Source of the DNA: Chitinophagales bacterium
GTDB lineage: Bacteria > Bacteroidota > Bacteroidia > Chitinophagales > S012-47
Assembly: GCA_015487695.1 (NCBI GenBank)
Contig: WFPF01000026.1
Coordinates: 1-44,187 of the forward strand
Length of the DNA stretch: 44,187 nt
Reading direction: 5' to 3'
Positions 10,362-43,121 of the stretch are shown piece by piece. Position 1 is the first letter of the stretch. The number at the start of each line of letters is the position of its first letter. The notes beneath the pieces were generated by a model, which was not told the DNA's origin, searched no databases, and saw nothing but the letters and a program-made list of their open reading frames with translations. The position numbers and the translations under genes are program-made.

Positions 10362-10369
10362 TATCTTTG
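10362..10369 (+). promoter_or_regulatory. TAnnTTTG promoter box for the GT4 gene
   Basis: TATCTTTG matches the consensus fully and lies 18 bases before ATG 10388. Its last three bases form an in-frame TTG that could be mistaken for the start codon, which argues for the downstream ATG. Confidence 0.75.
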
Positions 10370-10387
10370 CCAAAAGCAAATGCCAAA

Positions 10388-11581
10388 ATGCCTCGAGTAC
10401 TCCGTATTATCAACCGTTTAAACTTAGGGGGCCCCACATACAATGCAGCGTATCTGACGCGCTATCTGGCACCGGAATATGAAACCTTGCTTGTAGCCGG
10501 GGTCAAAGAAAAAAGTGAGGCCAGTTCGGAATTTATCCTCAACCGCATGAATATTCAGCCGCTATTCATCGAGTCGATGCGGAGGCCTATTCACCCGCTT
10601 CGCGACCGGGCGGCATTCAAAGAAATAGACCGGATCATCCGGGATTTTAAACCGGACATTGTGCACACCCATGCGGCCAAAGCCGGTGCACTCGGGCGCC
10701 TGGCAGCCAAAAGGAACGGAATTCCGGTAGTCGTTCATACCTTCCATGGTCATGTCTTTCACAGCTATTTCAATCCGGTGAAAACCCGTGCTTTTTTAAG
10801 TATTGAGCGCTATCTGGCGCGGCAATCTTCGCGCATCATTGCCATCAGCGAAAAACAAAAAAGAGAATTAACCAGCGAGCATCAGGTCTGCGAAGCCGAG
10901 AAGGTCAGTGTGATTCCTCTGGGCTTTGATCTCGACCGCTTTGCACAGGACAAGGTGCAAAAACGCAGTCGCATGCGGGACCTCTTTCTGCTCGACAGCG
11001 ATGAGGTAGCAATGGGAATAATCGGGCGCCTGGTGCCCGTAAAAAATCATGCGCTCTTCTTCGAAGCCATTGAGCGCATACGACCTAAACTCAAAAAGAA
11101 ACTGCGGGTATTCGTGGTAGGAGACGGTGAAATGATGCAGAGCCTGCAGGCCCTTTGCCGGAAGCTGAACCTAGAATACACCGTGGGCAATCCACCGGAA
11201 GAGAAAGCACTTATCACTTTTACTTCCTGGATGCGAAATATTGACGATGTGACGGCTGCCATGGACTTGATAGCTCTTTCCTCGCTCAACGAGGGAACGC
11301 CCGTCAGCCTGATTGAAGCGCAGGCAGCCGGCAAGCCCGTGGTTTCGACACGGGTGGGCGGAATCGAAGACATTGTGGAGCACGGAAAGACGGGCCTGCT
11401 CTCAGACTCCGGAGATCTCGAAAATTTCGCTGCCAATCTTTATCGCATGATCGAGTATGAAGAGATGCGCAGGGAGTATGCAGCCAATTGCTCGGAAAGC
11501 ATCCTCCAGCGATTCGGATACCAGCGCCTGGTAGCCGATATGGACCGGCTCTACCGCAGGCTGTTGCAAAATCCGGCATGA
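10388..11581 (+). CDS. Family 4 glycosyltransferase (GT-B fold)
   Basis: A 397-residue cytoplasmic sugar transferase that would move a sugar from a nucleotide-sugar donor to a glycan or lipid acceptor. The N-terminal acceptor domain begins with the RLNLGGPTYNAAYL glycine-rich loop and contains the DIVHTHAAKAGALGRLAA segment typical of GT4. The C-terminal donor domain has GRLVPVKNH and an E-x7-E motif (Glu302 and Glu310, in NEGTPVSLIE), followed by GKPVVSTRVGG. The frame is open further upstream to a TTG at 10367, but that TTG lies inside a TAnnTTTG box, so ATG 10388 is preferred. The gene stands alone, not in an obvious polysaccharide cluster, so the acceptor cannot be inferred; capsule, O-antigen or exopolysaccharide are the usual products of relatives. 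Confidence 0.92.
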   Translation: MPRVLRIINRLNLGGPTYNAAYLTRYLAPEYETLLVAGVKEKSEASSEFILNRMNIQPLFIESMRRPIHPLRDRAAFKEIDRIIRDFKPDIVHTHAAKAGALGRLAAKRNGIPVVVHTFHGHVFHSYFNPVKTRAFLSIERYLARQSSRIIAISEKQKRELTSEHQVCEAEKVSVIPLGFDLDRFAQDKVQKRSRMRDLFLLDSDEVAMGIIGRLVPVKNHALFFEAIERIRPKLKKKLRVFVVGDGEMMQSLQALCRKLNLEYTVGNPPEEKALITFTSWMRNIDDVTAAMDLIALSSLNEGTPVSLIEAQAAGKPVVSTRVGGIEDIVEHGKTGLLSDSGDLENFAANLYRMIEYEEMRREYAANCSESILQRFGYQRLVADMDRLYRRLLQNPA

Positions 11582-33350: not shown

Positions 33351-34055
33351 ATGCTGCTCAGGCCTGCTATCAAACTCAATTCATCCGCTGCTCTTCTCAA
33401 TCAAATCGTAAAAAGAATTTTGCGGGAGGATGATCATTGTGTGGATGTGGGGGCGCACAGGGGCAATATGCTGAAACTCTTTGCAAAATATGCTCCGGAC
33501 GGAATCCACTATGCAATCGAGCCGGTTCCCGATCTCATGCAACTGTTGAAAAAACAATTTAAGGGAAAGGGCAATATACGCTTCGTAGAAAAGGCGGTGG
33601 CCGATGTAAATGATCATCTCGACTTCATGTATGTGATCAACAAGCCGGCACTGAGCGGAATTATAGAAAGGGAGCTGCCACGGAGGGCCCGAAGCATAAG
33701 CATCCTGGTAGAGTGCGTGACACTGGATGACTTCCTTCCGTCAGACTATCGCATGAATGCGTTGAAAATTGATGTGTGTGGAGCTGAGCAGCAGGTTTTG
33801 CTCGGTGCCCGCGAGCGAATTATGAGGGACCGGCCAAGGATTTTCTTCCGGCACTATCATAAGGAACTGAGTTGCTACAATGCCCGTCCTCAGGATACTT
33901 TTCAACTGCTCAACGAAGAACTGAACATGCGGATATTTACCCCCCGCGACTTTCTCAGTGGCCATGATGCGCTGAGCAGCGAGCGTTTCGTGTCGATCTT
34001 TCACCGCGGAGACGATAAGTACTTTGTGGCCCTTCCGGCAGAGGAAAAGATCTGA
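33351..34055 (+). CDS. FkbM family methyltransferase
   Basis: A 234-residue S-adenosylmethionine-dependent methyltransferase. The SAM-binding motif I is VDVGAHRGN (residues 31-39), followed by YAIEPVPDLMQLLKK (the E-P pair of motif II), VEKAVAD, and CVTLDDFL. The family's L-K-I-D-V-E-G-A-E block appears here as LKIDVCGAE: a cysteine (Cys143) replaces the usual glutamate. FkbM members methylate hydroxyl groups of sugars, polysaccharides or natural products; the target here is unknown. The stop at 34055 is four bases from the end of the converging PKD-protein gene, with no terminator visible. The gene starts 147 bases after the hydrolase and has its own candidate promoter. Confidence 0.88.
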   Translation: MLLRPAIKLNSSAALLNQIVKRILREDDHCVDVGAHRGNMLKLFAKYAPDGIHYAIEPVPDLMQLLKKQFKGKGNIRFVEKAVADVNDHLDFMYVINKPALSGIIERELPRRARSISILVECVTLDDFLPSDYRMNALKIDVCGAEQQVLLGARERIMRDRPRIFFRHYHKELSCYNARPQDTFQLLNEELNMRIFTPRDFLSGHDALSSERFVSIFHRGDDKYFVALPAEEKI

Positions 34056-34059
34056 GCCA

Positions 34060-37000
34060 TTACTGATAGATTACCAAACGACTGACATTGCCGTCCGGGC
34101 CTGAAACCCTAAGGAGATAAAGCCCTTTGCTTTCTCCGGAAAGGTTAATTTCCCAGAATTCCACGGTTTTTGAAATCTCTTCTTTTCTATTGAATAGCAA
34201 TCGTCCGTTCAGATCATACAGTGCAATATTCGCTTCTCCGTGTTTCCTGCTTTTCATTAGCAAATTGAAGCGCCCGTTATTGGGGTTGGGCTGAATGGCA
34301 ATTTCATAATTTCCTTGAGGCCCGGTTAATATACCGGAAGGTACAATAACGACATCTTTATAGACGGTGTCTTTATCGCAATAGGAGTAGCTAATAAGCC
34401 GCACTTTATAGGTGCCTGCAGCCGTATACTGATGGTCTATGCTTCGAGCGCTATCCTCTGCTGAACTGCCATCACCAAAGCCCCAGTCGTGGCGGATGGC
34501 ATTTCGGCTGGTATCGGTAAAAGTGACCTGCATCTTATTGATCAGGGCAGAAAATCCGGCATCTATGAGGGAGTCCACTACAAATTCAACGGAGTCGCTG
34601 TAGGAATCATGGCAGTTATGAACGGTATTCACACTCAATGTGATCCACTGATGTTCTGCACTGTCATTGGGTGAGTAATAGACATCTTTTCCCTGGAGGG
34701 TGTCGTCAGCAAAGTACCAGATCCATGCATTGATAGGGTTGCCGGGGTCCGCATAGGAAGAATCGCTGAAAAGCACCGAATCGAGCAGGGCACAGAAGGT
34801 GTCGGCAGCGTAATAAGCATCGGGATTGCCATAGATGGTCACGTTTTGAGTGGCCGTGTCTGCACATATTCCGCCCGGTTCAGTAGCAGTAACCTGCACC
34901 TTGTAGTTTCCTTTCTTTTGAAAAGCATGGGCGCTGTTTTGTGTAGTGGCAATTCCACCATCACCAAAGTCCCATTTCCAGCTGTAATTATTGCCGGCCG
35001 GTTGGGCGGAGGCTTGAAAGTGAAGTGTTTCGCCTTCACATCCTTTGCTGTCTCCGGTCATGGATGCCAGTACCGTGATAATATCCAGCAAATCATTGGC
35101 TTGATCGCTGCAGCCATTGGCATCCGTTACCTGCAGGGTGATATTTAATCCTGCACCTATATTTGTATAGGTATGTACAGGGTTTTGTTTGTTTGAAACG
35201 CTTCCGTCACCAAAGGTCCAACTCCAGGTTTTGATAGCAGCATCTCCGGGAATGGATTTGTCTTTAAAATGGAGCGGCAAACCGAGACACCAGTAGGGGG
35301 GTGCATCAATTCCGGCACTTGGTCCATTGTAAATCTGAATTTTATTTGTGATGCTGTCTTTGCAGCCACTGCTGTCGGTCACTACCAGTTTTACATTATA
35401 CATGCCCGCTGCCGTGAAATTGTGTGTTGGGTTTTGCACATGGGAAAGCGGACTGCCATCACCAAAGTCCCATTTCCATTTGACAATAGCTGTGCTTCCT
35501 GCCACGCTATTATCGAAGAAGTTAACGGCAGTAAAGCCTGCCAGCTTATCGAAGCATTGGGGCGCATTGCTGTTGAAAAGGGCCAGAGGGCCGAGTCCAA
35601 TTTCTGCATCATATTCTCCCTTCAGGGTGTCTTTGCATCCGTTCGAGTCTGTGACCACTAAGATGAAGTCCCAGATTCCCGACTCTGTAAATGTCACTTC
35701 TACCGGGTTCCCGTTTTCCTTTATCTTTTGATTACCGAAAAAACTTATAAATTCCCATTGGTATGATACGATAGGGGCACTTCCCGCCATCACATTGGCA
35801 GCAAAGCCGACAGTGATATCCTCGCACGGAGTGCTGTCCATTACTATCTTTAATATTTGTTTTATCTCGGGCCCTTCCCCGTACTCTAAAAGTATTGATG
35901 TAGAATCTATGCACCCGAAGTCTGTTTCTACTATGAGGGTGATTCTGGCCGTATCATAGCTCGTGAACACTCCGGTATAGCTGTTCCCTGTGCCTACGGT
36001 ATCTCCGTTTAAGGTCCATAGCCGCGAAACGATTTGCCCGCAACCATTGCTTCCCGATACGTCTGTAAACACGACCGTATCTTTCTCGCCAAACTTGATG
36101 CAGGGATCAGGGTCTCCGGCTGATATTCCGGCAATGGGGTTGGGACACATGTAAAAGGTATCGCTGATGCTGTCGACACAGGCAAAATCATCACTAACGA
36201 TCAGCGTGACAATATACTGACCGGTATCAGAAAAAGTTCGGGAGACGGCACTTTTATTAAATCCTTGTAGCGTTACTCCGTCACTGAATTTCCATGCATA
36301 GTATTCGGGTCCGGGGTTGCCGTAGGACGTACTGATAAAGTCGAGGGTGCTGCCTGCACAGGAGCCACCGAAAATTAAAAAATCAGCTGTCAGATCGCAG
36401 TTGCGCGAGCAGGAGGTTGAAAAGTACATATTGATGAGCTGATCGATAAGAGTATTGATGTTAAATGCAGGGTGGGTTCCGGTGTCTTCCTCTATATTGA
36501 CATTATCCAGTGTCCAGCTTTGAGAAACCGTGCTGACGGTTTCCGTGCTTTGGCAGTTGTTGCTTTCACCGGGGAGGGAAAGGTTTAACCATGGAGCCTC
36601 GTCTATAAAATAACGACCGCTGCTGCCATAGGTCATAACAACACCACTTTTTGTCTTGGTCACACCGTTTGCAAGTCCTGTATCGTTCTTGACCAGCTTT
36701 CTTTCGCCCGTACTGATATTTGTGAAATCAGGAATGGTAATCAGGAACGGATCGTAGATGACTCCCGCATACATATTGTATTCGTGGCCCGAAAGGATGA
36801 GCGGACATCCGCTGCCCGTGCTTTTTGATGTCTCCGGGCAATCCGGCTGTATACCCGTAAATTCGCGGTAGATATAAGACGCAAGCCCGGGATCTAAAAA
36901 AGAGTATAGCAGGACTATTCCCGGATTGTTGACAAAGTCCATATAAGCAAGGGTAGCACAATTGTCGCAACCGGTAACGAGAGAAGATCCGGCCATCAGC

Positions 37001-37866
37001 AGATATCCGTTTACAATGCTATAGGCAAAAAAGTCAAGATAAAAATAGGGTGAACTATAGCCGGCAAGGAGCAGTAATGCCGGTGAAAAATTCAGAAACG
37101 CCATGCGATGAGATCCATTGTCATAAGCAATAAGCCAAAGATTGCCATTGTTTCCGATCACCAGGCCTCTTATCTCATAGCCGGGATAATTTGATACATA
37201 TCCTGAGCCTGCAAGTGTAAATGCTAAAGCGTGCTGAATGATGAGCCCTGTGGTAATGTTTACTGCCAATAACATGAGGCCGTATCCGTCATCGTTGACG
37301 CTGAATGTCCTGACCGCAAGGTAAAGCATATTGGCGTTGACCATGCTCCAGGCCATATTCATAATAGCATAGTTGTATCCCCCCGCAGAGGAAGCAGAAC
37401 CGTTTCGGTTTCCTCCCAGGTCGCTGAGTTGGTATGATTCAAGCACATTTCCGTCAGAACTTATTTTGACGAGGTCGCCCCACATACTGCATATCCAGAT
37501 ACTGAATCCCCCGTTGCCGTCTTCCACTACCTGGAGGTCGGTGATTAAAGAAATGTCGATCTGGAGCACCCAGTCGAGGGATTGCGTGGCCGGATTGTAG
37601 ATGGCCACAGCCGGATTAGTTCCTCCCTGTCCATCGGGAATGGAGTTGAGCAATTGCGCCACTCGCCCGTCAGGGGTATTTTGTTGCTTCATGATTTCAC
37701 CATAAGTAATAGGAGCGGTACTTAACTGATATACAAGGTCGGTCGAACTCAGGCCTACCTGCCCGCTTGATGTGCGTTGCAACTGAATATCGTCCGTTTG
37801 TCCGCTTAGCTGTGTGAAATAAATGATCCCCAATGACAGTAAAAGAACGTAACGCAATGCTTTCAT
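34060..37866 (-). CDS. T9SS-exported protein with about eight PKD domains
   Basis: A 1,268-residue secreted protein. The signal peptide starts MKALRYVLLLSLGIIYF and ends near LSGQ. The N-terminal 470 residues show propeller-like strands (for example GGFSIWICSMWGDLVKISSD) but no recognised family. Then about eight PKD or PKD-like domains follow in tandem (about residues 490-1170), the clearest having WKWDFGDGSPLSHVQNPTHN, WSWTFGDGSVSNKQNPVHTY, WKWDFGDGGIATTQNSAHAF and HDWGFGDGSSAEDSARSIDH; each carries a Cys pair pattern around the strand edges. The C-terminal sorting domain is type A (IQPNPNNGRF to SRLVIYQ). PKD arrays usually act as rigid spacers or binding modules on the cell surface. The start ATG at 37866 directly precedes the signal peptide. 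The role is otherwise unknown. Confidence 0.93.
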   Translation of the reverse strand: MKALRYVLLLSLGIIYFTQLSGQTDDIQLQRTSSGQVGLSSTDLVYQLSTAPITYGEIMKQQNTPDGRVAQLLNSIPDGQGGTNPAVAIYNPATQSLDWVLQIDISLITDLQVVEDGNGGFSIWICSMWGDLVKISSDGNVLESYQLSDLGGNRNGSASSAGGYNYAIMNMAWSMVNANMLYLAVRTFSVNDDGYGLMLLAVNITTGLIIQHALAFTLAGSGYVSNYPGYEIRGLVIGNNGNLWLIAYDNGSHRMAFLNFSPALLLLAGYSSPYFYLDFFAYSIVNGYLLMAGSSLVTGCDNCATLAYMDFVNNPGIVLLYSFLDPGLASYIYREFTGIQPDCPETSKSTGSGCPLILSGHEYNMYAGVIYDPFLITIPDFTNISTGERKLVKNDTGLANGVTKTKSGVVMTYGSSGRYFIDEAPWLNLSLPGESNNCQSTETVSTVSQSWTLDNVNIEEDTGTHPAFNINTLIDQLINMYFSTSCSRNCDLTADFLIFGGSCAGSTLDFISTSYGNPGPEYYAWKFSDGVTLQGFNKSAVSRTFSDTGQYIVTLIVSDDFACVDSISDTFYMCPNPIAGISAGDPDPCIKFGEKDTVVFTDVSGSNGCGQIVSRLWTLNGDTVGTGNSYTGVFTSYDTARITLIVETDFGCIDSTSILLEYGEGPEIKQILKIVMDSTPCEDITVGFAANVMAGSAPIVSYQWEFISFFGNQKIKENGNPVEVTFTESGIWDFILVVTDSNGCKDTLKGEYDAEIGLGPLALFNSNAPQCFDKLAGFTAVNFFDNSVAGSTAIVKWKWDFGDGSPLSHVQNPTHNFTAAGMYNVKLVVTDSSGCKDSITNKIQIYNGPSAGIDAPPYWCLGLPLHFKDKSIPGDAAIKTWSWTFGDGSVSNKQNPVHTYTNIGAGLNITLQVTDANGCSDQANDLLDIITVLASMTGDSKGCEGETLHFQASAQPAGNNYSWKWDFGDGGIATTQNSAHAFQKKGNYKVQVTATEPGGICADTATQNVTIYGNPDAYYAADTFCALLDSVLFSDSSYADPGNPINAWIWYFADDTLQGKDVYYSPNDSAEHQWITLSVNTVHNCHDSYSDSVEFVVDSLIDAGFSALINKMQVTFTDTSRNAIRHDWGFGDGSSAEDSARSIDHQYTAAGTYKVRLISYSYCDKDTVYKDVVIVPSGILTGPQGNYEIAIQPNPNNGRFNLLMKSRKHGEANIALYDLNGRLLFNRKEEISKTVEFWEINLSGESKGLYLLRVSGPDGNVSRLVIYQ

Positions 37867-38020: not shown

Positions 38021-39511
38021 ATGGCAGAAACACTAAGCGCACTGCTTTCGAGGCTCAGCAAAGAAGAACAGCGTTATATCAGCATAACGCTGAAGCACAG
38101 CGGTCGGGATTCCCGTTACCTCAGGTGTTACCGACTTTTGAAGAAAGGAATTCCGGCCGGCAAAATCTCAGAAGAGCTGGGACTTCCCGAACGTGACCTG
38201 TCCGTACTAAAAAGCAAACTTTACAGACGTCTGCTGGATATTCTGGCGGATTTTTCTCTCAGCGGGAACATCTTCCTGCAGCTCATGCGCATGCGGGAAC
38301 GCATAGAGGTGCTGATATCGAAGGGGCTCTTTCGTGAGGCAGAAAAGCAAGTGGAAAAGCTTCTGACGAAGGCAAGTTCCCATGAGTTTTATTTGTTTGA
38401 AGCAGAGGCATTGCGCCTCAAAAGGTTGCTGATGGCACAAAGAAATTATTCAGAAAGTAAGAGAGAAGAGCTTCTGACGATGAAAGAAGAACTTCAAAAA
38501 AAGACAGGTGCTTTTCTCCATCTGAGTGAACTTCAAATTGATTCCTCCCTGCTTTTCATGCAATTCTACCGCGAGGGGCATCTCGATGAAGAAAGCGAAA
38601 CTTATCAGCGCTTTTTGCAGAGTCATGGCAGTGATTTTGAAAGCAACTCGGCCCGCTTCGTGGTGCACAATACGCGCGGTTTTCTCTTTGGTCTCAGCGG
38701 AGTAGCGGAGGGAAGTATTTCCGAACAGAAAATGGCCATTGATGCATTGATGCAGCTGCCGGCCATTGACAATGAGCGCTGGTACAATCTGGTTTCGGCT
38801 TTTAACAATATTTGTGTTGCACTTTGCAATGAGGGCGATTTTGGCAGGACAAAGGAATACCTCGAAAAACTGAGACAACTTCCGGAAAAAAGAAAAGGAC
38901 TAACATATCAGGAATCGATATTCTGGTGGCAGCACATTCTGGCCCTTGATTTCTACCTGATGATGGAAAGTGCCGAATTTAAGAACCTGGACCGCTTGCT
39001 CGACTCCCTGTACCGGGCGTTGAAGCAGTATGAATTTTCGCAATGGTACCGCGCGTATTTTCATTACTCGGCTGCCTATGCCGCCCTGCTGGCCGGCCGA
39101 CCGGATGATGCGCTGCAATGGAATCTCCGCTTGCTGCAATATCCGCACAATAAAATTCCGAAAGAGATTCATCGTTTTGCGCTTTTGCTGCAGGGGCTTA
39201 TCCATTTCGAATTGAGAAATTACGAGGTAGCTTCTGTACTGCTCGAAAACCACAGGCGCAAACTCAGAAAGATGAAGAATTCGTACCGCTTGGAAACCCT
39301 GTTTACCCGTTTCTTGCTGCGTGCCGCTAAAGCAAAGGAGTGCAGTGCTTTGGCATCGGCATGCCTTTCCGAAGTGAATGTGTTGTTAAAGGAGCATGGC
39401 CCGGAGCGTCATGTCCTGGATTATGTGGATATTGATATTTATCTCGAAGCGCTTTCATCGGGAATGTCGTTTTCCACTTTTTATCAGAAAAAGAAAAATA
39501 ATGATGCCTAA
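38021..39511 (+). CDS. Helical TPR-like hypothetical protein
   Basis: A 496-residue protein without signal peptide or membrane segments, predicted cytoplasmic. It is almost wholly alpha-helical and rich in Leu, Glu, Lys and Arg, with paired helices spaced like degenerate tetratricopeptide repeats, for example NICVALCNEGDFGRTKEYLE and AAYAALLAGRPDDALQWNLR, and ALLLQGLIHFELRNYEVASV. The N-terminal 70 residues (SALLSRLSKEEQRYISITLK, then GKISEELGLPERDLSVLKSK) look like a helical segment with helix-turn-helix character, but a DNA-binding role is only a guess. The end overlaps the start of the phosphoesterase gene, so translation is probably coupled. I do not recognise a named family. Confidence 0.88.
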   Translation: MAETLSALLSRLSKEEQRYISITLKHSGRDSRYLRCYRLLKKGIPAGKISEELGLPERDLSVLKSKLYRRLLDILADFSLSGNIFLQLMRMRERIEVLISKGLFREAEKQVEKLLTKASSHEFYLFEAEALRLKRLLMAQRNYSESKREELLTMKEELQKKTGAFLHLSELQIDSSLLFMQFYREGHLDEESETYQRFLQSHGSDFESNSARFVVHNTRGFLFGLSGVAEGSISEQKMAIDALMQLPAIDNERWYNLVSAFNNICVALCNEGDFGRTKEYLEKLRQLPEKRKGLTYQESIFWWQHILALDFYLMMESAEFKNLDRLLDSLYRALKQYEFSQWYRAYFHYSAAYAALLAGRPDDALQWNLRLLQYPHNKIPKEIHRFALLLQGLIHFELRNYEVASVLLENHRRKLRKMKNSYRLETLFTRFLLRAAKAKECSALASACLSEVNVLLKEHGPERHVLDYVDIDIYLEALSSGMSFSTFYQKKKNNDA

Positions 39512-40053: not shown

Positions 40054-40061
40054 TATCTTTG
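40054..40061 (+). promoter_or_regulatory. TAnnTTTG promoter box for the glycosyltransferase fusion gene
   Basis: TATCTTTG, full match, 21 bases before ATG 40083. It ends in a TTG that is in frame with the gene but is not the likely start. Confidence 0.75.
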
Positions 40062-40082: not shown

Positions 40083-43000
40083 ATGAAGCAGAGCAATCAA
40101 AGTCAAAAGGGAGGGACGTCCTTTCCCAAACTTTCCCTTGTCATTCCGTGCTACAACGAAGCCGAAAGGCTTGAAAAACTCTTTGTCCCCTTGGCCGGAT
40201 TTGAAAAAAAATGGAAGGGCGAACTTGAAGTGCTTATCGTGGATGACGGAAGCACGGACGGCACTGAAGAAGCCATACGCCAGCACCCTGTATTCAGGGA
40301 ACTGGAGGCAGCGGGCCGGGCCCGGCTGATCACTTACCGGCCCAACAGGGGCAAAGGCTTTGCCCTGAAGACCGGAGTGATGGAGGCTACGGGCGATTAT
40401 ATTCTCACCCTTGATGCCGACATGAGCATGAAACCCGGACAGTTGCTCCGCTGGATGGAGATGAACGGGGGCCGCCTGCCCGAAAACGAAATATGGATCG
40501 CATCGCGCGAGCTGAAAGACTCCTCCACCGAGGGCGACCAGTCGAGGCGCCTGGCCGGCAATATCTTCAACCGCATCGTACGGATTCTCACTCCGCTGGA
40601 TGTAAAGGATACGCAATGCGGATTCAAACTCTACCCGGCTGCTGTCGCTAAAAGGCTTTTTTCGCGTATGAAAGTGCATGGCTGGGCCCACGATGTCGAA
40701 TTGCTTTACCGGGCCCGCCTCGAAGGAATTCCGGAACGGGAAATGCCCATACAATGGTTTCAGGAGCCCGGAAGCAAAGTGAGTGTTGTAAGAGATGCGT
40801 TGAAGATGCTGATGCAGGTGCTCATGGTGACCCTTCTTCTCAAATGGCAATTCTTTATCTCCGACCCTGTTCGCTCCATATTCGGGAAGAATGATAATAT
40901 CAGCGGAGGAGGAGACCGGGCATCGGTCTTCCGGCTGCTTTATTTCCTTTCCCTCGCATTTCTGCTTTTTTATATGCCTTACATTTCAAAGGACTACGGC
41001 ATCACGGGAGACGAAGATGTGCAGTACGTCTATGGCGAGCATCTCTACGATTATTTTGCCAGTGGCGGCAGCAACGACACGGCTCAGAACTGTTGTCCCG
41101 ACCTGGGTGCCAATGCGCCCCAAAACCTGCACTTTTACGGAGGCTCATTTGACCTGCTGGCATCTACGGTTCACCATACCCTTGGGCTGAAAGGCGATCC
41201 CTTCCGTACCCGGCACTTTCTGAATGCCCTTTTCGGATTTCTGGCTTTGCTTTTTGCTGCCAAACTGGCCAAAATGTACGGAGGCTATACTGCGGGCTTC
41301 CTGGCCATCCTCTTGCTGGTGCTGACGCCCCGCTTCTTCGGGCATTCCATGAACAACCCAAAAGATATTCCCTTTGCCGCGGCCTATATCGTTTCCATTT
41401 ATTTCCTGCTGAAGTCCATCCGCCAGTTTCCCAGGCCCCGCATTTCTTCCCTTATCGGGCTGACCCTCGGCATTGCGCTGGCGATCAGCATTCGTATCGG
41501 TGGCCTCATGCTCATCGGCTTTACGGGGCTGCTCGGTCTTTGGGAGGTCTTTGCCAACCCGGAGCTGCGCAAGCACTTCAGCCGCGATTTCAAACATTAT
41601 CTGAAGATTGTGCTCGGGGTTTCCCTGCTGGGCTATGCCCTCGGCATCCTTTTCTGGCCCTATGCCCACCTTGATCCCATCAACAATCCGATGAAGGCCC
41701 TCGGACTGATGGAGCAGTTTAATGTGGGCGTGCGGGTACTTTTCGAAGGAAAATACATCATGAGCACCGAAGTGCCCTGGTACTACGAGCCCAAATTCAT
41801 GCTCCTCACACTGCCTCTGGCACTGATGGCGGGGTTGATCCTTCTGCCATTTGCATTTTTGCACAAGTCTTATAACAAGCGGCATCTGCTGATGCTTCTT
41901 TTTACGGTGATATTTCCCCTTGCTTATGCCATCTACAAATCATCGCCACTCTATGACGGTATGCGGCACTTCCTTTTTGTTGTGCCTATCCTGGCTGTGC
42001 TTTCCGCTCTTTCGTGGAAAGCGCTCATCTGCAAAGTGCCGGGACGGGCAGGCAAGGGCGCTGTAGCATTGCTCCTTGCCGTGCTCTTGTTTTTACCGCT
42101 CCGCTGGATGATCAAATATCATCCCATGGAGGCCACCTACTTCAATGAAATATCGGGAGGTGTGGAGAAGAATTTTGGTGATTACGAAACGGATTACTGG
42201 TTCAATGCGCTGAAACCTGCCGTAGACTGGCTGGTCGATGAGGAGTTGAAGGAAAGAAGCGATACAGTCCTGATCATTCACAATGTGTCGTATATCGTAA
42301 GGCATATGATGAAAGAGCGGGGCATCCCCGCCATCGACCGCTGGGGGCGCTACAACAATGCCGCCAACTGGAGCAACCGCAAGAAGAACAGGCGATGGTC
42401 AGACTGGGATTATGCCATCTTTACCCCGCGCTTTCTTGATACGGAAATTCTGAAAGAGGAATGGCCGCCCCACAACACCGTGTACACCGTGGATGTCGAA
42501 GGCAAAGCCATGGCTGCGGTGATCAGGCGCCCATCGAAGAAAGACAGCGAAGGGTATGAGGCCTTGCAGGCGGGGGATTACGAGCGAGCCATTGCGGCAT
42601 TTGAAAAGTACCTCGAGGCCGACCCCGATGACCCGGTCGTACTCTACTATCTGGGGCGGGCCTGCCTGCAAGCAGGTCGCTACCGGGATGCAGCCCGTTA
42701 TCTCGAACGCTCGATGGAACTCAGAAAGATACCCATTGACGAAGAGCAGGAAATCCTGCTGGCGCAGGCGCTCCTGCAGGGCGGACAAGTACAGAAAGGA
42801 CTTGATTTCATCCGAAAACGCATCGGTGAATACGAAGCCCGTTTCAATGCAATCGGGCGCAGCGGGGTGCTGAATGAATATCAGCGGCTGATGGCAGCTT
42901 ATCAGCGTGCCCGGCAAAGCGGTGCAGACGAAGACGCACTCCGAAAGCTCTCAAATAAGCTTTCGGGCCCCTCCCGTTCGGTGCAGGAATACATTGGCCT

Positions 43001-43121
43001 GGCTCGCAGGCTGAATGCATTTTATACTTTGGGAGCCAATGCCTGGCAGTCGCAGGGGAATATGCAGAAAGCGGAAGAGTGGAAGAAAAAAGCGGGCCAG
43101 TATGCTAAATTGCTGAAGTAA
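40083..43121 (+). CDS. Three-part fusion: ALG5-like GT2, GT39-like membrane glycosyltransferase, TPR
   Basis: A 1,012-residue inner membrane protein. Residues about 15-250 are a GT2 domain of the polyprenyl-phosphate sugar synthase kind: LSLVIPCYNEAERL, VDDGST (53-58), LDADMS with the DxD at 111-113, DTQCGFKLYP (from 176) and GWAHDVELLYRARLEG, as in ALG5/DPM1 relatives. From about 280 there are some 10-11 membrane helices. The first outer loop, ITGDEDVQYVYGEHLYDYF, carries Asp310-Glu311 in the place of the acidic motif of GT39/ArnT-like GT-C enzymes, and TPRFFGHSMNNPKDIPFA is typical of GT39-like proteins. A soluble tail follows with TPR-like repeats (from about 823: ALQAGDYERAIAAFEKYLEA). 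The GT2 half could make the lipid-linked sugar that the membrane half transfers; this is inferred. Confidence 0.93.
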   Translation: MKQSNQSQKGGTSFPKLSLVIPCYNEAERLEKLFVPLAGFEKKWKGELEVLIVDDGSTDGTEEAIRQHPVFRELEAAGRARLITYRPNRGKGFALKTGVMEATGDYILTLDADMSMKPGQLLRWMEMNGGRLPENEIWIASRELKDSSTEGDQSRRLAGNIFNRIVRILTPLDVKDTQCGFKLYPAAVAKRLFSRMKVHGWAHDVELLYRARLEGIPEREMPIQWFQEPGSKVSVVRDALKMLMQVLMVTLLLKWQFFISDPVRSIFGKNDNISGGGDRASVFRLLYFLSLAFLLFYMPYISKDYGITGDEDVQYVYGEHLYDYFASGGSNDTAQNCCPDLGANAPQNLHFYGGSFDLLASTVHHTLGLKGDPFRTRHFLNALFGFLALLFAAKLAKMYGGYTAGFLAILLLVLTPRFFGHSMNNPKDIPFAAAYIVSIYFLLKSIRQFPRPRISSLIGLTLGIALAISIRIGGLMLIGFTGLLGLWEVFANPELRKHFSRDFKHYLKIVLGVSLLGYALGILFWPYAHLDPINNPMKALGLMEQFNVGVRVLFEGKYIMSTEVPWYYEPKFMLLTLPLALMAGLILLPFAFLHKSYNKRHLLMLLFTVIFPLAYAIYKSSPLYDGMRHFLFVVPILAVLSALSWKALICKVPGRAGKGAVALLLAVLLFLPLRWMIKYHPMEATYFNEISGGVEKNFGDYETDYWFNALKPAVDWLVDEELKERSDTVLIIHNVSYIVRHMMKERGIPAIDRWGRYNNAANWSNRKKNRRWSDWDYAIFTPRFLDTEILKEEWPPHNTVYTVDVEGKAMAAVIRRPSKKDSEGYEALQAGDYERAIAAFEKYLEADPDDPVVLYYLGRACLQAGRYRDAARYLERSMELRKIPIDEEQEILLAQALLQGGQVQKGLDFIRKRIGEYEARFNAIGRSGVLNEYQRLMAAYQRARQSGADEDALRKLSNKLSGPSRSVQEYIGLARRLNAFYTLGANAWQSQGNMQKAEEWKKKAGQYAKLLK

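Follow-up and report, generated by a model that had tools for sequence, protein, structure and literature searches.

Does a single bacterial polypeptide both make a lipid-linked sugar and use it? The question is raised by a gene at positions 40,083–43,121 (+) of the window (the whole 44,187-nucleotide stretch, from contig WFPF01000026.1 of a Chitinophagales bacterium), in which the first-pass annotation had read a GT2 domain, a GT-C membrane domain and a TPR-like tail on one polypeptide. This reading was borne out by a continuous open-reading frame of 1012 codons without internal stop or gap, by Pfam matches to the GT2, PMT-type GT-C and TPR parts, and by an AlphaFold2 model in which the same parts were found (mean pLDDT 90.6, pTM 0.88; input alignment of 60 family members). 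The longest alternative start is a TTG at 40,059, 24 bases upstream of the ATG at 40,083, and a near relative (L008, about 90% identity) has the identical ATG start and length (1012 aa). Identity to the window protein falls to 49% in L034/L102 and to about 36–42% in further homologues of the same order, the lower limit among the fused proteins being about 35% overall. The window comes from a MAG-like draft in 137 contigs, which would be the ground for suspecting that an assembly error or frameshift had fused two neighbouring genes; such an artefact is virtually ruled out, because the three-part order with its GT2 motifs recurs in nine proteins from several genomes (window, L008, L009, L010, L102, L103, L104, L106 and L107), eight of them in separate assemblies. 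We consider it probable that the gene product is a bifunctional glycosylation enzyme anchored in the membrane, a lipid-sugar synthase/transferase, and that in the wider family the synthase half has repeatedly been made non-catalytic.

The N-terminal part (residues 1–266; 40,083–40,880, +) is a GT2 domain of the DPM1/ALG5/GtrB-like kind, recognised above the cut-off by Pfam Glycos_transf_2 (PF00535, residues 18–123, E 1e-20). It carries the motifs DDGS (55–57), DADMS (111–115), DTQCGFKLYP (176–185) and GWAHD (200–204), and the second and third of these, like the D310-E311 pair of the membrane part, lie where the first-pass annotation had placed them. All nine fused members keep DDGS/DAD/QCGFK-type motifs with small substitutions (NDGS in L010/L104, DTD in L102). 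In foldseek searches of the PDB the best matches to the modelled domain were DPM synthase (9ep0, 6e-10; 5mlz, 2e-9), ArnC (6e-9) and GtrB (4e-8), and profile searches gave long alignments to GtrB (7e-22), ArnC (5e-19) and DPMS (3e-16); chondroitin synthase had a higher summed score against the GT2 profile, but via two short stretches only. The domain is under purifying selection in the active fusions (w 0.09–0.12, Nei-Gojobori, close pairs), and this half looks catalytically intact and, judged by its fold, of the polyprenyl-phosphate type. A long helix at its end (residues 235–266) is read as interfacial with no membrane span, because it carries charged residues in homologues; taken as a membrane span, it would put D310 in the cytoplasm.

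Downstream, the GT-C domain (residues 280–679; 40,920–42,119, +) is matched by Pfam PMT_2 (PF13231, residues 371–514, 3.5e-8, 34.3 bits against a cut-off of 26.1) and PMT (PF02366, residues 379–520, 8e-8, 32.6 bits against 22.7), and the best foldseek match of the membrane part in the PDB was ArnT with undecaprenyl phosphate (5f15, 8.4e-8), followed by Stt3 chains of OST. A GT-C profile gave marginal sequence similarity to ArnT (E 0.058); assignment to the PMT/ArnT type rests on the Pfam PMT models and the predicted fold. Homologues keep the acidic motif noted in the first pass: D310 is invariant in 58/58 aligned sequences, and at position E311 50 of the 58 have E and 5 have D; D428 and D704 (58/58) and R471 (59/59) are invariant too. 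The eleven predicted TM helices fit the positive-inside rule when the N-terminus is placed inside. In this topology D310, the candidate catalytic acid, would sit in the first periplasmic loop, and the C-terminal tail would be periplasmic as well. The GT-C half looks catalytically intact and, by fold, lipid-dependent. Between the last membrane helix and the TPR-like helices lies a soluble, mixed alpha/beta stretch (approximately residues 690–815), delimited from the family alignment, conservation and the model as a predicted periplasmic domain (residues 680–821; 42,120–42,545, +) that includes the invariant D704 within a conserved HP..YFNE..GG..ETDY pattern. The remainder (residues 822–1012; 42,546–43,118, +), also predicted periplasmic, consists of TPR and TPR-like helices in the model; as a minor correction to the first-pass annotation, sequence matching identifies no more than about two canonical TPRs (TPR_19 at 827–876 and TPR_16 at 823–876; about 823–880, 8e-11).

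Among 80 non-redundant homologues from Bacteroidota three classes were found: nine active fusions with all GT2 motifs kept (class A), 42 in which a ~200–260-residue N-terminal domain has lost the GT2 catalytic motifs (class B), and 29 GT-C(-TPR) proteins without any N-terminal domain (class C). Two class C proteins have a short or missing tail, and L028 may be a truncated class B member, as its start is near a contig end; a phylum-wide scan with only two candidates scored per genome added no members. The first-pass suggestion that the lipid-linked sugar is made and used by the same molecule therefore holds at most for a minority of the family: both halves look intact in the active fusions, but class B (42/80) is without a GT2 active site, most homologues with an N-terminal domain having lost it, often with a separate GT2 gene adjoining. 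In a quick, midpoint-rooted GT-C tree with long branches, class A and three class B members (Saprospira L011/L012 and L108) formed one supported set (95), other class B members fell in two further sets, and class C was basal under this rooting. Rebuilding of an active site once lost is unlikely, so the history would most simply be read as one in which an active GT2 was fused early, was then inactivated several times independently, and in some cases was lost altogether.

More surprising than the fusion itself is that an inactivated GT2 domain has been kept. Pfam does not recognise GT2 in the class B domains tested, but profile comparison shows their homology with the class A GT2: hhalign gave 98.8% (E 7e-17) once every class B member hit directly by the HMM had been taken out, against 3.2% or less for reversed or column-shuffled controls. 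The domains also share with the class A GT2 their position, length and a linker motif R-x-x-W-F/Y-x-x-x-P before TM1. For a modelled example (L013, pLDDT 83) the best PDB matches included ArnC, GtrB and DPMS (8e-6 and weaker). That such domains are functionless relic DNA in the course of being lost would agree with their absence from 29 members and with their faster evolution (w 0.12–0.25 against 0.03–0.09 in the adjoining GT-C part; Nei-Gojobori, close pairs with dS estimable in both parts, the values being rough as many dS are near saturation). We regard this as unlikely, since w is still far below 1, the frame, length and linker motif are maintained in deeply separated lineages, and the predicted fold is well defined. 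Measured by these substitution rates the class B domain appears relaxed relative to the active enzyme yet clearly constrained by purifying selection. Because the GT2 has been inactivated repeatedly while the domain was kept, often with a synthase-like gene alongside, the N-terminal domain has probably taken on a further role that involves no catalysis, which would be docking of a synthase or membrane anchoring.

The neighbourhoods bear on this role. A separate, same-strand GT2 lies within 1 kb of 19/42 class B genes against 0/9 class A genes (Fisher p 0.018, not corrected for phylogeny), and more than half of class B members have no GT2 within 1 kb. These separate GT2s belong to at least two lineages other than that of the fused GT2: an ALG5/DPM1-like protein of 240–267 residues whose gene directly follows the class B gene (Odoribacteraceae, L070) and which has D[ST]QCGAK motifs in the sequences inspected, and a protein of 386–411 residues with C-terminal hydrophobic segments encoded upstream, in most cases with a methyltransferase gene between it and the class B gene. 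In L113 a motif-intact GT2 of the class A type (49% identical) lies immediately upstream and overlaps the start of the GT-C-TPR gene, an arrangement that we count as Rosetta-stone evidence for the bifunctional reading, and in a GT2 tree the nine fused domains, L113 and L119 form one group (93/98). The last of these, from the window's own family (G002, L119:4980-5750), is the GT2 part alone in a gene of 257 residues, with a metallophosphatase upstream as in the window; no GT-C match was found in that genome (89% complete). It is possible, though we put it forward tentatively, that we are dealing with a pseudo-glycosyltransferase family, in which a synthase fused to a downstream GT-C lost its active site several times and the domain persisted, serving synthases encoded by separate genes as a dock or regulator; synthesis and use of the donor would thereby stay physically coupled across the membrane.

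No neighbour gene common to all active fusions was found. The window and L008 share the upstream metallophosphatase and a downstream RDD protein, whilst L009, L102, L103 and L106 have a methyltransferase gene 3–57 bp downstream of the fusion gene. Class I SAM-dependent methyltransferases of several little-related subfamilies directly adjoin the GT-C gene at about 18/80 loci (L102:6761-7477, L103:7832-8554, L009:5369-6088, L106:7730-8464, L077:3668-4213, L015:4310-4906 and L029:5933-6547 among them), which suggests an O-methylated sugar or acceptor at the methyltransferase-linked loci. None lies beside the window fusion gene, and no homologue of the L102 enzyme was found in the window genome. 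Away from the fusion gene, the window encodes a GT4-type glycosyltransferase (10,367–11,581, +) and an FkbM methyltransferase (33,351–34,055, +). It also encodes a protein of 496 aa (38,021–39,511, +) whose resemblance to the BT2802 family is weak and falls short of the cut-off. At another locus a 632-residue open-reading frame directly upstream of a GT-C-TPR gene (L096:3037-4932) matches the GT2 model weakly (2e-15) and is possibly another fused glycosyltransferase.

How might the two halves work together? We propose that at the cytoplasmic face the GT2 domain would move a sugar from a nucleotide-sugar to polyprenyl phosphate, that the sugar lipid would then cross the membrane, as it must if the two active sites lie on opposite faces, and that at the periplasmic face the GT-C domain, with D310 as candidate acid/base, would pass the sugar to an acceptor; in the wider family the inactivated N-terminal domain would serve as a dock for the synthase, or as a membrane anchor. 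A GtrA-type flippase (PF04138) was not found in the window genome (98.7% complete), and among seven other active-fusion genomes searched it was present in two and not found in four, so the product could enter a common pool. The window genome also encodes at least five further PMT_2 enzymes, one TMEM260-like enzyme and other GT2s, and exclusive pairing is therefore not required. The linkage may in that case be a matter of bookkeeping, the GT2 half feeding a common polyprenyl-P-sugar pool from which the GT-C half draws, with neither hand-over nor a dedicated pathway; the opposed active sites, the distribution of GtrA, the other PMT_2 enzymes able to use the same donor and the many relatives without a fused synthase all fit such an arrangement. 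We are inclined to doubt it, given that association of the two activities recurs in different forms: as a fusion, with the GT2 as upstream neighbour (L113), with a GT2 of a different lineage as downstream neighbour (Odoribacteraceae, L070), and in operon-like GT2-methyltransferase-GT-C order. How a lipid-linked sugar is handed over from the face where it is made to an enzyme on the opposite face is an open question, for which natural fusions, split versions and catalytically dead versions form a comparative system, hand-over against free pool.

For the acceptor, the fused synthase/transferase would most likely use a protein, which the periplasmic TPR tail would help to bind or select. Recruitment of a protein by the TPRs, as the first-pass annotation had it, is plausible by analogy with TMTC1-4, whose TPRs are proposed to recruit protein substrates (PMC11292533, PMC7801869). 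Its further proposal, a T9SS cargo as acceptor, found no support: co-occurrence with SprA is uninformative, since SprA is present in 382/396 sampled Bacteroidia genomes. One protein encoded in the window (1268 aa; 34,060–37,866, −) combines seven PKD (Ig-like) domains with a T9SS sorting tail; it is a speculative acceptor candidate because TMTC and TMEM260 enzymes modify Ig-like folds. The acceptor of ArnT, the closest solved GT-C fold, is lipid A, and ArnT-like enzymes modify lipids; a glycolipid or envelope polysaccharide as acceptor (ArnT-like or Gtr-like), with the TPR tail binding an assembly partner in place of a protein acceptor, is accordingly a reading that we take seriously without favouring it. 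Against it, TMEM260-like GT-C genes, bacterial relatives of a human protein O-mannosyltransferase, directly adjoin the GT-C-TPR gene in three genomes (L108:7616-10636, L113:7132-10464 and L114); in the window genome the TMEM260-like gene lies elsewhere (G000:C34:20388-20915). Three-component Gtr systems do modify polysaccharides (PMC11127046), whereas the C-terminal TPR tail parallels that of TMTC1-4, where recruitment of proteins is proposed (PMC11292533). With a protein acceptor the fusion would be a candidate protein-glycosylation enzyme in Bacteroidota, a phylum in which the O-oligosaccharyltransferase of Tannerella forsythia has been described as unknown (PMC8729774).

In a full-text search of part of the literature we found no description of the GT2-GT-C-TPR fusion or of its decayed form, the fusions being surveyed in Bacteroidota; prokaryotic GT-C-TPR proteins are already on record (PMC7801869). 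Like DPM1, ALG5, GtrB and ArnC, the GT2 half has a predicted GT-A fold, DDGS, DAD and QCGFK-type motifs and an interfacial helix past the catalytic domain, but the known enzymes stand alone or carry GtrA-like TM segments, whereas here a GT-C follows in the same chain. Three-component systems (GtrABC: GT2, flippase and GT-C) likewise divide two catalytic steps between two membrane faces (PMC11127046), but do so from separate genes, and GtrA was not found in the window genome. With ArnT and PMT the fusion protein shares the GT-C fold, acidic residue(s) in the first periplasmic loop and a predicted polyprenyl-P-sugar donor, but it has a TPR tail and a fused synthase and no MIR domain. TMTC1-4, the animal O-mannosyltransferases of GT105, resemble it in their 11-TM, N-in GT-C, catalytic acids in EL1 and lumenal TPRs (PMC7801869, PMC11292533), as far as the predicted topology of the window protein goes, but have no synthase domain, and the TMTC DUF1736 (PF08409) is absent among the best 25 of 27 Pfam matches of the window protein (E up to 0.055). 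Each part of the fusion belongs to a known kind, and the whole would give the TMTC O-mannosyltransferases of animals a parallel in bacteria.
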